Shown: positions 43,540 through 52,732 of the stretch, piece after piece | How the letters are laid out: each line of letters begins with the position of its first letter | Numbering within the stretch: the first letter of the stretch is position 1 | Origin: Bacillota bacterium | Lineage (GTDB): Bacteria > Bacillota > Bacilli > Alicyclobacillales > SLC66 | NCBI GenBank assembly: GCA_021821085.1 | Contig: JAKACV010000013.1 | Location: forward strand, 1-55,191 | Length of the DNA stretch: 55,191 bases | Direction of reading: 5' to 3' | Program-made: the position numbers and the translations under genes | The notes under the pieces: generated by a model | The model's database searches: none | Told to the model about the DNA's origin: nothing | The model's input: only the letters and a program-made list of their open reading frames with translations

Positions 43540-44733
43540 TTATCCTCCCACTTTTAAAAATCCGACAGGGGGTGAAGGTAGCGGGATCTTTGGATAGACA
43601 TATCGAGCGAGCCCGGGATGAACGATGTGCACATTTACCGAAGTTGTGATGTGTGCATGTGTAAATAGGTCATCCCATTGTGGGCTCACTTGATGCCACA
43701 CGTGAGGGTGTGTTCGATATAAATGCAAGCCAATACTCAGAATATCGGTGTGATCTTTTTTCTGTAAAGTGGTAATCGTGTCGGTGAGAATGGTTTGCAC
43801 TTTCGTGGCAATGGCGCGTTCCATCTGCTGAGTTGGAATAGATTGTGCCATGTTGTGACCACCTGAATCCTGTGCAACTGTCCCTTCAAGATGGAGTGAA
43901 AAATGAGCCGCCAGATGATCGTGCACGACATTCATTTGTAGAGTGGTTTTTTCGTTTGTCAGTTCAATCGCTTGTCGCGTATGATTTCTTGGATTGATGA
44001 CATCGATTGCTCCCCCTTTTTCCTGGCCAAGAAGCCAAACCAGTCCTTGTGTTTCTCGCGTAGTTAACTGTTCGACCATGTGATTGTGATGAATGACGGC
44101 CGTTCCAGCATACTCGACTAATGGAATTTTCGATAAATCGTGTCGAATGTGAAGCATCGGTAAATACCCATTATTGACTGGCCCGTACATATCCCGAAGA
44201 AACTCCCGCATGGTATGTGTAGTGTAATTTGATATGAAATGGATGTTCTGCATTCCTGCAGAAAGGGGAAACTCTGCGCTCGATCCATATGCCGTAGAGG
44301 CGCGTAAGACGTCTTGAACCGGATCATCAGTGACGAAGAGATACGCACCGAGTTGTGGTTGTTGATCTCGAACCCATATATCAAATATCCAATACAGATC
44401 CTCCCTAGCCATCGTGTGACTCAGTACTATGGACTTTGCATGTGTAAAGAGAATTCGCCGCTTCATATCGCGCACCATCTCTCGGGCGATATCTAACATC
44501 GTACGACCAACACGTGAGAGCATCGTATGACTCATTGTTTTTGTATTCTCTTCACCTGTTGGGGCTCCAATCATTTCCACGATCATTCGATAACGTTGTG
44601 AACTGACTTTTTCGACACCTACACCAGAGACAATGGCCGCGTCCCTCAGTTCAAGGTTGCTCCAACATCCCGATAAGAGTAAAGTCAGGAAAAAATAGAG
44701 AATGATCTGGGACAGATAGCGAGGCATGCTCAT
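43540..44733 (-). CDS. Germinant receptor lipoprotein subunit (GerC family)
   Basis: C subunits are lipoproteins on the outer face of the spore inner membrane. The 397-residue product has a signal peptide with lipobox LLSGC (C23), CWSNLELRDAAIVSGVGVEK after it (family signature), and a long C-terminal domain of repeated alpha-beta units. It overlaps the gerA end by 4 bp (ATGA), so subunits are made in fixed ratio. The order A-C-B is that of gerK-type operons. Confidence 0.92.
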   Translation of the reverse strand: MSMPRYLSQIILYFFLTLLLSGCWSNLELRDAAIVSGVGVEKVSSQRYRMIVEMIGAPTGEENTKTMSHTMLSRVGRTMLDIAREMVRDMKRRILFTHAKSIVLSHTMAREDLYWIFDIWVRDQQPQLGAYLFVTDDPVQDVLRASTAYGSSAEFPLSAGMQNIHFISNYTTHTMREFLRDMYGPVNNGYLPMLHIRHDLSKIPLVEYAGTAVIHHNHMVEQLTTRETQGLVWLLGQEKGGAIDVINPRNHTRQAIELTNEKTTLQMNVVHDHLAAHFSLHLEGTVAQDSGGHNMAQSIPTQQMERAIATKVQTILTDTITTLQKKDHTDILSIGLHLYRTHPHVWHQVSPQWDDLFTHAHITTSVNVHIVHPGLARYVYPKIPLPSPPVGFLKVGG

Positions 44734-46220
44734 GGATGACCTTCTCGTTTAGGTAAATTTTTAATTCTTGTTTGTTGTTGAACGGGGATACTGTGAGGGC
44801 GTTTTCGAAAAAAACGAATAGGCATCCGTATGATCGTATCCTTCCAATCGGAAAAATAGAGCGGAACGAGTGGAGCCATAAATGAAACACCAAAGGAAGT
44901 CAGTGAAACCACGTGAGTAAAAGTCACGAGTGTCACCATAATGACGCCAAATAATCCAAACACACTGGCATTAAGCAAATAGATGAAACGTAAGATCGAA
45001 ACGACATCCGCAATGGACGTCAAAAGAAAACCCGAAATAATCGAGATCGCCACGACGATGATGGCAGGAGGTGTCATGAGCCCAGCATCTACGGAGACTT
45101 GACCGAGAATGAGTGCCCCCACAATGCTCACGGCGGAACCTACTGTTTTAGGTAAACGAATTCCTGCTTCGCGAACTAATTCAAATCCAATGAGCATGAT
45201 GAGAATCTCAAAAGAAACAGGAAATGGCGCCTTTTCGTTGAATCCTTGGAAACTGGGGATAAGAGCTAAAGGAACCATTTCTTTATGGAAATTTGTAGCG
45301 GAAATATAGAGACTGGGAGTAAGGACACTCACCGGTAAGCTTATAAATCGTAAAATACGTAACAAAGTTGCGTAATAGGGACGGGAACTATAATCTTCAA
45401 CGCCCTGAACGGCTTCTATAAACAAATGCGGTCCATAGAGTGCAGTGGGATCGCCATCCACTAAAATGATAATCCGCCCCTCTGTCAAAAGAGCGGCTGC
45501 ACGATCTGGCTTCTCAGTATTTCCGATGGTTGAAAAGATACTCCACGGGTTATCTTCAATGATCTGTTCAATTTCGCCTGAACTTGTGATACTGTCTAGT
45601 TCGATTGATTGCAACTTTTGTAATACATAGTTTAGCAACTCAAGTGCCGTTAGCCCTTCAATATACGCTATTACAAGTTTCGTATGTGTGATCGAGCCGA
45701 ACTCACACGGATGGAAACGCAGTCGCGGATCTTTAATTCGCTTGCGAATAAGGGCTATATTCGTTCCGAGTGATTCCACAAAACCCTCGTGAGATCCCCG
45801 AACGGACATTTCAAACCCAGGCTCTTCGATGGACCGTTCTGGAAGGGCTGGTGCATTTATGACTAAAGATTCATCTAATCCTTCAAAAAACAGTGCAATT
45901 CCGCCTTGTAAGAGCATGTTTAGACAGGGTTCAAGCTCGTGGAAACAAGTGGTGTTTTTAATGATAATTTGATTTTGTGCTTCCTCTAGGATGGATGTCG
46001 TTGGATCGAATATATGTTGCAACAGCGGTGTGATGACACTAGGGTGAATTTGATCTTTATCGGCTAATCCTGAAATCACCACGGCCATGGTTTTAATCGG
46101 AGTAGAATTCAATGTATTTAATTGAAAATAATCAAATTGAATATCGTCACTATCTCCAAAGCGATTTTTGATGAGTTTCAGGTTATCATCCAGATTGAGT
46201 GAAATTTCATGAATGATCAT
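44730..46220 (-). CDS. Germinant receptor subunit A (GerA family)
   Basis: The A subunit is now viewed as part of a germinant-gated ion channel. The 496-residue product has a soluble N-terminal half (to about 245) and a membrane half with about five to six segments. Family motifs are IAYIEGLTALELLNYVLQKL, GRIIILVDGDPTALYGPHLF, and KEMVPLALIPSFQGFNEKAP then FPVSFEILIMLIGFELVREA. First gene of the operon; a sigma-G-like promoter lies upstream. Confidence 0.94.
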   Translation of the reverse strand: MIIHEISLNLDDNLKLIKNRFGDSDDIQFDYFQLNTLNSTPIKTMAVVISGLADKDQIHPSVITPLLQHIFDPTTSILEEAQNQIIIKNTTCFHELEPCLNMLLQGGIALFFEGLDESLVINAPALPERSIEEPGFEMSVRGSHEGFVESLGTNIALIRKRIKDPRLRFHPCEFGSITHTKLVIAYIEGLTALELLNYVLQKLQSIELDSITSSGEIEQIIEDNPWSIFSTIGNTEKPDRAAALLTEGRIIILVDGDPTALYGPHLFIEAVQGVEDYSSRPYYATLLRILRFISLPVSVLTPSLYISATNFHKEMVPLALIPSFQGFNEKAPFPVSFEILIMLIGFELVREAGIRLPKTVGSAVSIVGALILGQVSVDAGLMTPPAIIVVAISIISGFLLTSIADVVSILRFIYLLNASVFGLFGVIMVTLVTFTHVVSLTSFGVSFMAPLVPLYFSDWKDTIIRMPIRFFRKRPHSIPVQQQTRIKNLPKREGHP

Positions 46221-46282
46221 GCTGCATACCTCATGATGAATATGTCGTATAGTCGAACGGACAAGGGGATAAATTCCATATA

Positions 46283-46312
46283 TAGAGTGTGCAAAAGATA
46301 ACCCATCTATGC
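46283..46312 (-). promoter_or_regulatory. Possible sigma-G-like promoter of the gerA operon
   Basis: On the minus strand, TGCATA (ending 46308) and CACTCTA (46289-46283) are 18 bp apart; the -35 fits the sigma-G pattern and the -10 differs at one base from CATnnTA. The start site would be about 55 nt before gerA. Germinant receptor operons are usually sigma-G-dependent. Confidence 0.45.
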
Positions 46313-46377
46313 ATCCATTCTCTATACGAGGAGCCTGGGAAAATATTCAGATTCAGTGATACAGTCAACTTCTATAA

Positions 46378-46533
46378 GAGCCTGTTCAAAAAGGGTTGAG
46401 GTAAGATGCAAGCAGGGGTTTGGTGAAGTCTGGACATGCGCGCGGAGTGTACGAAGGAGGTACATGAGCACGCATGTCCAGCACAAGCCGAAGCCCTGCG
46501 TCGCAGAGTTCTCGACCCTTTTTGAACAACCTC
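46378..46533. mobile_element. Fold-back miniature mobile element (MITE-like)
   Basis: Two 63-base arms (46378-46440 and 46471-46533) are inverted copies matching at 42 of 63 positions without a gap; the outer part (TGTTCAAAAAGGGT, GAG) and the inner part (CTGGACATGCG) are perfect. The 30-base centre has no gene. TATAA lies directly outside both ends (46373-46377 and 46534-46538), a likely 5-bp target duplication. Open frames across it are by-products of the palindrome. It lies between the gerA promoter and the oxidase gene. Confidence 0.82.
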
Positions 46534-46631
46534 TATAAGAGTCCTTGGAACAGAAGCATACTCCAATAGAGTGTGATAAAATTAATCGTCTACAATTCAC
46601 GCGTTCGTGATGGTGAGAGGAGCCTGGTGAC

Positions 46632-47366
46632 GTGTCATTATCTTTTACCCCCGAGCAACTGGGGAGTTTAGAATTAGTGGAACAGGCAATGAATCAAGTC
46701 GTTCAGCGTTACTTTTATGACGGCCAATTCTTTCAAACGTTACGCAATGGAGACTATTCAATGCTTCAATTGCGCTATTTCGCTATTCAATACAGCTACT
46801 ATAGTCGGCATTTTCCGCGCGTACTTGGAGCTGCGATCTCTGCCATGGAACCTCGAAGTACATGGTGGGTTCCGCTGGCCGACAATCTTTGGGATGAGGC
46901 TGGTCGGGGGATTCGGGGACATTCACATGAAGCTTTATATCGAACTTTTCTTCATTCGGTGGATCCAACGATCGAATTAGATCCATACGGAATTCCGCTC
47001 GTGCCGATGTCTTGTGCGGTATCTGAGGCAATATCTGAATTTATCACTTTCTTCCACCATGCGAAGCCACTGGAGGCAATGGCTGCAGTGGGACTTGGTT
47101 CGGAATTTTTCGCGGGCGCAGTGATGGGAACGATTAGTGAAGGATTACGGCATGCAACATACCATCGTGCGCATTCGTTAGATCTGACCTTTTGGGACGT
47201 TCATGCAGAGGAGCATGAACCGCGGCACTATCAGTTGTGCAAAGAAATTCTTGCCCAATGTGAAGATGCAGGAAGTCTTCACATCATGTATGAGACAGGT
47301 AAGAAAATCGCCATTTCAGAAGCCATGATGTATGCCAACTTACATGATGAGATGATTGCGCTTTGA
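46632..47366 (+). CDS. Heme-oxygenase-like diiron oxidase family protein
   Basis: The 244-residue, all-helical product fits the iron-containing redox enzyme group (TenA/PqqC fold, with CADD- and UndA-type diiron oxidases). Candidate metal ligands are E in NLWDEAGRGIRGHSHEALYR with its H, E in GLGSEFFAG, and D/E/H in FWDVHAEEHEPRHYQLCKEI. YFAIQYSYYSRHFPRVLGAA in helix 2 also fits. Substrate unknown. The GTG start follows GAGAGGAG about ten bases away. It is followed by a lipoprotein gene, with no obvious pathway partner. Confidence 0.75.
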   Translation: MSLSFTPEQLGSLELVEQAMNQVVQRYFYDGQFFQTLRNGDYSMLQLRYFAIQYSYYSRHFPRVLGAAISAMEPRSTWWVPLADNLWDEAGRGIRGHSHEALYRTFLHSVDPTIELDPYGIPLVPMSCAVSEAISEFITFFHHAKPLEAMAAVGLGSEFFAGAVMGTISEGLRHATYHRAHSLDLTFWDVHAEEHEPRHYQLCKEILAQCEDAGSLHIMYETGKKIAISEAMMYANLHDEMIAL

Positions 47367-51679: not shown

Positions 51680-52690
51680 ATGCTGTCGCCCGTTGCAGGA
51701 TTTCCACACATCGATCGGGTGACACTCCCGATTCCAACACCGCTACAACATGTCCATTGTTATTTGGTGGAGGGCAAGCACGGATTTGCGATCATTGATA
51801 CAGGGTTTTATACCCATGAGATAGAACGGGTCTGGGCTAATGCGTTGGCACAAAAGGGGATTCGCTTTGCGGATATTGAGCAAATTGTACTGACGCATGC
51901 GCATCCTGATCATTATGGTGCAGCAGGATGGCTTCAAGAACAAACAGGTGCCCCGATTTATTTGCTTGAGCAGGAACGGGATTTGATTGATCGGCATGCG
52001 ATGCGCAAAGATAGCTGGAGTGATGCATTGATTGCGTACTTCCGGCCATTTGGGCTGCCTTTTACCTATGAAGAGGAGGTTCGCGCGCATGAGGCGTTCA
52101 TGCTGCAACTGATCAGTCCTGCACCAACACAGATTACTTGGCTCCGCGAAGGTGACACTTTTGAACTGATGGATGTGCCTTTTGAAGTCATTTGGGTTCC
52201 TGGGCATAGCCCGGGACAAATGATGTTGTATCATGAACCCCAAAAAGTGGCGTTTGTAGGCGATCACGTTTTAATGGGGATTACGCCAATTGTGGGAGTT
52301 TGGTCAGAAGATGATCTATACGCATTAGACAACTATTTGCATGCATTGCGAAAAGTTGCAATGCTTGATCTGCGTGTAGGACTTTCTGGTCATCGTGAGC
52401 CCATTGAAGCATGGCAAAAACGCATCGGGGATATTCTTGGTCATCACGAGTGGAGGCTGAAACGAATCTTAGATGTAGTCCAGGAACCTCTTACTGCATG
52501 GGAGATCATGCTGCGTGTATTTCGCGTTAGACAACCAGAGCAACTGCTGTTTGCACTTGCGGAATCTATTGCACATTTGGAGTATCTCGTTCAGCAGGGA
52601 GCACTTCAAAAGAAAGTTCAGGATGGCACATATCTGTTCGTAAAAGGCGTTTCAATTCATGAGTTATCGACTGCGATGATCTCTTTTTGA
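51680..52690 (+). CDS. Metallo-beta-lactamase-fold hydrolase
   Basis: The 336-residue product has the zinc-binding THAHPDHYGAAGWL, further ligand candidates in WVPGHSPGQMMLY and FVGDHVLM, and GLSGHREPI near residue 235; the C-terminal 90 residues form a winged-helix-like tail as in LACTB2-type enzymes. Substrate not known. ATG at 51680 with AGGAG upstream; the TTG at 51677 is an alternative. The final codons TCT TTT TGA lie in a piece of mobile-element end (52684-52698), so the native C-terminus may have been altered. Confidence 0.85.
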   Translation: MLSPVAGFPHIDRVTLPIPTPLQHVHCYLVEGKHGFAIIDTGFYTHEIERVWANALAQKGIRFADIEQIVLTHAHPDHYGAAGWLQEQTGAPIYLLEQERDLIDRHAMRKDSWSDALIAYFRPFGLPFTYEEEVRAHEAFMLQLISPAPTQITWLREGDTFELMDVPFEVIWVPGHSPGQMMLYHEPQKVAFVGDHVLMGITPIVGVWSEDDLYALDNYLHALRKVAMLDLRVGLSGHREPIEAWQKRIGDILGHHEWRLKRILDVVQEPLTAWEIMLRVFRVRQPEQLLFALAESIAHLEYLVQQGALQKKVQDGTYLFVKGVSIHELSTAMISF

Positions 52691-52698
52691 ACAACCTC
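52684..52698 (+). repeat. Solo end of the fold-back element
   Basis: TTTTTGAACAACCTC is identical to the right end of the element at 46378-46533. The bases beyond it (TTTATAAAA) are A+T-rich like the TATAA target there. No second end is near, so this is a relic or a partial copy. It supplies the stop codon of the hydrolase gene. Confidence 0.6.
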
Positions 52699-52732
52699 TT
52701 TATAAAATTTTTGTATCTTGAATATCAACGCG

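Follow-up and report, generated by a model that had tools for sequence, protein, structure and literature searches.

A small transposon of Bacilli with IS1182-type ends and an interior hairpin conserved across its subfamilies

The question raised by this locus is what a short fold-back sequence is doing between two divergent genes: whether it is a chance inverted repeat, a transposon without an enzyme of its own, or a signal serving its neighbours. The window analysed here is the whole stretch of 55,191 nucleotides (contig JAKACV010000013.1), and the fold-back element proper occupies 156 bp at positions 46378–46533. Read on the forward strand, it has the GGTAAGA-left orientation that corresponds to the putative RNA strand, and it represents a whole miniature inverted-repeat transposable element (MITE) of what we call subfamily A (166.9 bits against our model R1). 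To its left, the gerA-type spore germinant receptor gene (44730–46220, reverse strand; PF03323, E 4e-153) starts 157 bp away, and to its right a gene for a haem-oxygenase-like protein of the TenA/PqqC type (46632–47366, forward strand; PF14518, Haem_oxygenas_2, E 2e-13) starts 98 bp away. An earlier note on this DNA had named the neighbours gerA and an oxidase; the former name stands, and the latter is better replaced by the haem-oxygenase-like assignment.

A fold-back element in about ninety copies

The two 63-base arms can be aligned without gaps with 42 of the 63 positions matching, which is the best fold-back of this kind in the whole window, whereas the best match in ten dinucleotide-block shuffles of the window was 35. 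The coordinates given before for the fold-back with its duplication (46373–46538) and the count of arm matches were thus reproduced. The impression that the arms are best kept at their outer and inner ends has to be extended, since comparison with related elements brings out a third conserved block, TAAGA/GAGT, corresponding to an internal loop. The outer ends are 16-bp terminal inverted repeats, GAGCCTGTTCAAAAAG at 46378–46393 (forward strand) and GAGGTTGTTCAAAAAG at 46518–46533 (reverse strand), and they are flanked by TATAA on both sides (46373–46377 and 46534–46538, forward strand), a 5-bp target duplication of a position and length shared by 42 of 49 copies in the same genome. With its 16-bp ends and no open reading frame for a transposase, the element has the terminal repeats, the small size and the lack of coding capacity of a MITE. 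Two further features of the window may be mentioned here. A 20-nt direct repeat, ATAGAGTGTG..AAAA..TAA (80% identity), brackets the element at 46282–46301 and 46566–46585 and is possibly regulatory or a product of chance. At 52683–52703, CTTTTTGAACAACCTC followed by TTTAT forms a perfect right end of an element of this group; the rest is absent, and it is probably a truncated copy or an end of an insertion sequence (IS).

The element belongs to a small transposon that lacks an enzyme of its own and has recently spread to about ninety copies. At least 40 copies were scored in the genome to which the window belongs (2.85 Mb), with identities of 95–99% and a mean identity of 98% among copies within the genome. 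The end-word TGTTCAAAAAGGGT, with up to one mismatch allowed, occurs 95 + 88 times, as against 2 + 0 times for the reversed control, and the estimate of about ninety copies follows from this count. Many draft contigs of this assembly (C14, C17, C18, C19, C25, C6, C24 and others) end inside a copy; the repeat evidently fragments the assembly, and the genome may in fact contain more copies. Exact 5-bp AT-rich target duplications flank 42 of the 49 complete copies readable with both flanks, compared with 4.8 expected when the right flanks are shuffled among copies and 0–1 at offset positions, and they flank 43 of 61 copies in other genomes. The consensus of the target is T, A or T, any base (mostly A or T), A or T, A (TWNWA), with TATAA the most frequent form.

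Empty sites were sought by searching the joined flanks of 11 sites from two related species against their congeners, and contiguous matches were obtained for five of them (L303, L309, L305, L312 and L300). At L303, L309 and L305 the allele with the insertion is longer than the empty one by the element plus exactly 5 bp (gap of 160–161); L312 is also unoccupied in the congener, with a less clean alignment at the junction, and as the junction alignment left the difference at L300 unsettled, four empty sites are counted. For the insertion in the window itself no empty site was found in relatives, because the gerA gene is not adjacent to the haem-oxygenase-like gene there and synteny has been lost. 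The genome search in both orientations and the comparison of empty sites suggested in the earlier note thus yielded some ninety copies, and four unoccupied sites elsewhere in related genomes (three of them resolved to the base), instead of a single copy with no related IS and no empty site. No matches to the element were found in the plasmids and phages searched.

That the fold-back arose locally or by chance is therefore a view to which we attach virtually no weight: it could appeal to nothing beyond the modest identity of the arms, and it is contradicted by the copies, their target duplications and the empty sites. A chance palindrome is ruled out by the count of end-words and the duplications, together with an arm match exceeding that of the shuffles.

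An IS1182-like transposase as the probable partner

A scan of the genome collection with two transposases from the window's own genome (on contigs C37 and C92) revealed ISs of about 1.63 kb with ends of the form GAG(N)2TGTTCAAAAAG and 5-bp target duplications in Paenibacillus, Mesobacillus, Lysinibacillus, Halalkalibacterium and Aquibacillus. The IS of Paenibacillus baekrokdamisoli (L161) carries GAGCCTGTTCAAAAAG, identical in 16 of 16 positions to the left end of our element, at both of its ends and is flanked by the duplication TTATA, and the other ISs are alike. The ends and target duplications of the MITE are thus those of IS1182-like elements, and the search for an IS with the same ends proposed in the earlier note was answered in other genera of Bacilli. 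As for the suggestion that the transposase would be encoded elsewhere in the same genome, the evidence is divided. Contig C37 indeed encodes a DDE transposase next to an element end identical to the right end of the MITE (16/16; GAGGTTGTTCAAAAAG, L065:823–838), but this IS is truncated and its other end lost, the assembly being a draft. Contig C92 bears an intact cousin IS (target duplication TATTA), but its ends, GAGCGTGTCCGGAAAG, have diverged. Remnants of the same IS are represented by a 3' part on C37 and a 5' part in another genome of the same genus (G002). None of the other DDE transposases of the window's genome was found in an intact element whose ends match, and a search in two genomes rich in copies (G014 and G016) found no close homologue of the transposase.

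The candidate partner transposases match NF033551 with E values of 1e-16 to 2e-31, and their scores of 58–109 bits lie far below the curated NCBIfam cut-off of 270 for that family, so that they represent a divergent branch and can be called IS1182-like only. We considered whether the MITE is an internal-deletion derivative of the ISs found, and rejected this, as only the 16-bp ends are common to both and the hairpin model finds no match in those ISs. From the identity of the ends we infer that the MITE is mobilised in trans by an IS1182-like transposase; the copy number, the same-ended ISs and the empty sites in relatives agree with the non-autonomous element moved in trans that had been envisaged before. 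A separate case is offered by Alicyclobacillus fastidiosus, in which an intact IS1182-like IS (L176–L190, L205) with the ends GAGCGTGTCCGAAAAG/GAGGTTGTCCGAAAAG is present at least 16 times. The right end of this IS matches the ends of subfamily B MITEs, and the two likely form an active partner pair.

A conserved interior hairpin and the strand on which it may act

The GGUAAGA strand of the element is predicted to fold into a single end-to-end hairpin (−93.6 kcal/mol, z = −10.8), whereas the opposite strand folds less well (−82.9). Related elements in the same family fall into subfamilies with differing stems, all folding alike. In one alignment (A2) both-sided changes occur at 26 of 48 predicted pairs; in an alignment of ten divergent subfamilies (A4) double changes occur at 22 of 37 pairs, 95.6% of cells are paired, and the covariation score of 0.495 (at most 0.137 for slid partners) was reached by none of 500 shuffles. 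Against these changing stems, the internal loop UAAGA/GAGU and the apex GGAGYGUAC..GUACRUGAG are near-invariant across subfamilies. In the window, the 5' side of the loop, UAAGA within AGGTAAGA, lies at 46402–46406 (forward strand) and is unpaired in the predicted folds; it reads UAAGA in nine of ten distinct subfamilies and UCAGA in the tenth. The 3' side, GAGU within AGAGTTCT, lies at 46506–46509 (forward strand), and GAGTT is invariant in the ten subfamilies of A4. The apical hairpin CGGAGTGTACGAAGGAGGTACATGAGCAC (46443–46471, forward strand) contains an invariant G-U pair, one pair being G-U in all sequences of three alignments (15, 10 and 13 sequences).

Of 398 Bacilli genomes searched with a covariance model, 35 (in 15 of 145 genera) contain relatives. 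A second group of elements, about 178 nt long and found in two other families, has the ends, the target duplication and the apex in common with the first and lacks the internal loop. Weak matches of the Paenibacillus-type 178-nt elements had been entertained as 6S RNA, an assignment that was dropped given their MITE ends and target duplications and no match in Rfam. For the element itself, the sole match in Rfam 15 is MIR862, at 24 bits against a gathering threshold of 100, and its relatives are likewise without a family. The interior does not stem from deletion within a transposase gene; it is a hairpin that many MITE subfamilies have inherited. Some copies have odd architectures: a subfamily C copy (L253, G016:C232:43334–43602) is split by a different palindrome of about 124 bp, making a fold-back nested in a fold-back, and elements of little beyond two joined ends are represented by L284 (G312:C12, 46 bp) and by contigs of G016 in which the end-words lie 26 bp from each other.

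Covariation exceeding the controls is in itself no proof of a role as RNA, because a DNA palindrome can also covary, its arms staying paired through correction at the DNA level. Several observations bear on the strand. Pairs found on both strands include 34 G-U as against 16 A-C cells, a modest excess among cells that are not independent, which makes it weakly informative as a strand indicator. In tandem gene contexts the element lies in the sense orientation 22 times and antisense 8 times in its own genome (the exploratory set; binomial p of about 0.016), and 23 and 12 times, respectively, in other genomes (the check set, in which the p values for the orientation bias range over 0.03–0.09). 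Copies within 60 bp of an upstream gene are in the sense orientation after its stop in 18 of 23 cases in the own genome and in 16 of 21 cases (p = 0.027) in other genomes. The TWNWA target can contain the stop codon TAA; this may explain why copies lie near the ends of genes, but it does not account for their orientation.

Hairpins with homology to the core of the MITE were also found directly upstream of 23S rRNA, in the 16S–23S spacers of two species, namely in all three operons read in one genome (G044; L371–L373) and in one operon of another (G033; L374/L270). They lie on the sense, transcribed strand and their ends are decayed or absent; the homology exceeds all 300 shuffles for some subfamilies and not for others. 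One of the G044 operons carries a further insertion of about 126 bp with a second apex hairpin, absent from the other two.

Three readings compete with selection on a transposon-borne RNA. According to one, the element would be an ordinary MITE with no RNA role for its hairpin, the arms being kept complementary by quasi-palindrome correction or template switching and the rest reflecting shared ancestry. Quasi-palindrome correction does occur in bacteria, the element is a DNA palindrome whose arms can homogenise without RNA selection, and the 98% identity of copies within a genome implies much shared descent, so we grant this reading a substantial minority chance. Correction would, however, erase the mismatched loop and the G-U pair, yet both are among the most invariant positions, and the orientation bias and the persistence on the sense strand of rRNA spacers suggest RNA. 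It is unlikely, in our opinion, that the interior was instead captured from a 16S–23S spacer, so that a spreading hairpin mimics a signal for pre-rRNA processing or antitermination. Such an origin would fit the sense hairpins adjoining 23S in both species and the subfamilies that beat all shuffles, but other subfamilies do not, only two species are involved, and the G033 hairpin seems to retain decayed MITE ends (GCCTGTC..GACAGGC), which makes it simpler to suppose that a MITE inserted into rDNA and then spread from operon to operon.

Still less probable is the role envisaged in the earlier note, that of a terminator (here taken as bidirectional) or an insulator separating gerA from the haem-oxygenase-like gene. 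In its favour, a G/C-rich stem is followed by CCCUUUUUG on each strand, but in the predicted fold the U-run pairs with the A-run rather than staying unpaired after the stem-loop, as in intrinsic terminators, and a simple terminator scan found none. The tandem sense placement of other copies between co-directional genes likewise ill suits a strong terminator. Because the two gene starts are divergent, no transcript passes from one gene towards the other that could be terminated here, and any local effect of an element lying in the sense orientation to the haem-oxygenase-like gene would fall on the 5' leader or the promoter spacing of that gene.

The likeliest target of selection would therefore seem to be the RNA of the GGUAAGA-containing strand, which is favoured by the mismatched loops and the G-U pair being fixed rather than corrected, by the better fold and (weakly) the G-U excess on that strand, by the sense bias in tandem contexts and after gene stops, and by the rRNA-spacer hairpins lying on the transcribed strand. 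Taken as a whole, we have considerable confidence in an IS1182-type MITE moved in trans, with an interior hairpin conserved probably through RNA selection. An IS1182-like DDE transposase would recognise the 16-bp ends GAG(N)2TGTTCAAAAAG in trans, and insertion at T-W-N-W-A sites would duplicate 5 bp, as the copies, duplications and empty sites document. In the interior, the stems change by compensation while the internal loop and the apex stay fixed, as the alignments display. RNA of the GGUAAGA strand would presumably arise where transcription of neighbouring genes reads through into the element, and would be retained for the most part in 3' untranslated regions, where, more speculatively, a host RNase or RNA-binding protein might recognise the hairpin, rendering read-through insertions tolerable or stabilising the transcripts. 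A bolder extension, which we offer as a tentative possibility, is that Bacilli-wide MITEs spread a functional RNA module (the fixed UAAGA/GAGU loop and apex), sense in transcripts, which entered the 16S–23S spacer beside 23S, where a host RNase or RNA-binding protein recognises it.

Relation to known elements and implications

The Correia/NEMIS and RUP/BOX elements, structured MITEs of intergenic regions, are likewise small and mobile hairpins; they become part of transcripts and can alter how the RNA is processed. The present family differs from them in ends, hosts and motifs. MITEs with IS1182-family partners are also known, such as those of ISMac2 in Methanosarcina acetivorans, which measure 160 and 169 bp and number 14 and 7 copies (PMC3852290). 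They resemble the present family in size class, in the kind of autonomous partner and in copy number, which ranges from several to tens in a genome. The main text of that study is silent on secondary structure, whereas the present family has a structured interior conserved across families of Bacilli and a 5-bp target duplication in nearly all copies. The bcr1–bcr3 repeats of the Bacillus cereus group are MITE-like elements of about 150 bp in up to 130 copies, with a conserved secondary structure and a frequent location in untranslated regions; a 5-nt AT-rich motif, TTTAT, is associated with their mobility, and they are reportedly restricted to that group and attributed to a mechanism resembling site-specific recombination (PMC6542083, PMC3446304; PMC2267715, Table 3). 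Similar as the two are in size, copy number, structure and the 5-nt AT-rich motif, our family is set apart from bcr, going by these descriptions, by its IS1182-type ends and its occurrence in many families. IS1272, a member of the IS1182 family, reportedly replaces inverted repeats rather than duplicating its target (PMC5678879), in contrast to the 5-bp duplication made by the present IS group. A literature search, with most subscription papers outside its scope, found no paper giving the end sequence or naming the family. IS1182-partnered MITEs are on record in Methanosarcina, as are MITE-like repeats with a secondary structure in the B. cereus group.

Most MITEs are regarded as shrunken transposons with interiors free to decay. 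Here it is the interior that is conserved from one subfamily to another. This raises the question of whether a transposon pays its way with an RNA hairpin, and of what reads it. The family would also account for assembly breaks in this genome, would supply RNA family libraries with a new entry, and would link a mobile element to the evolution of ribosomal RNA spacers.
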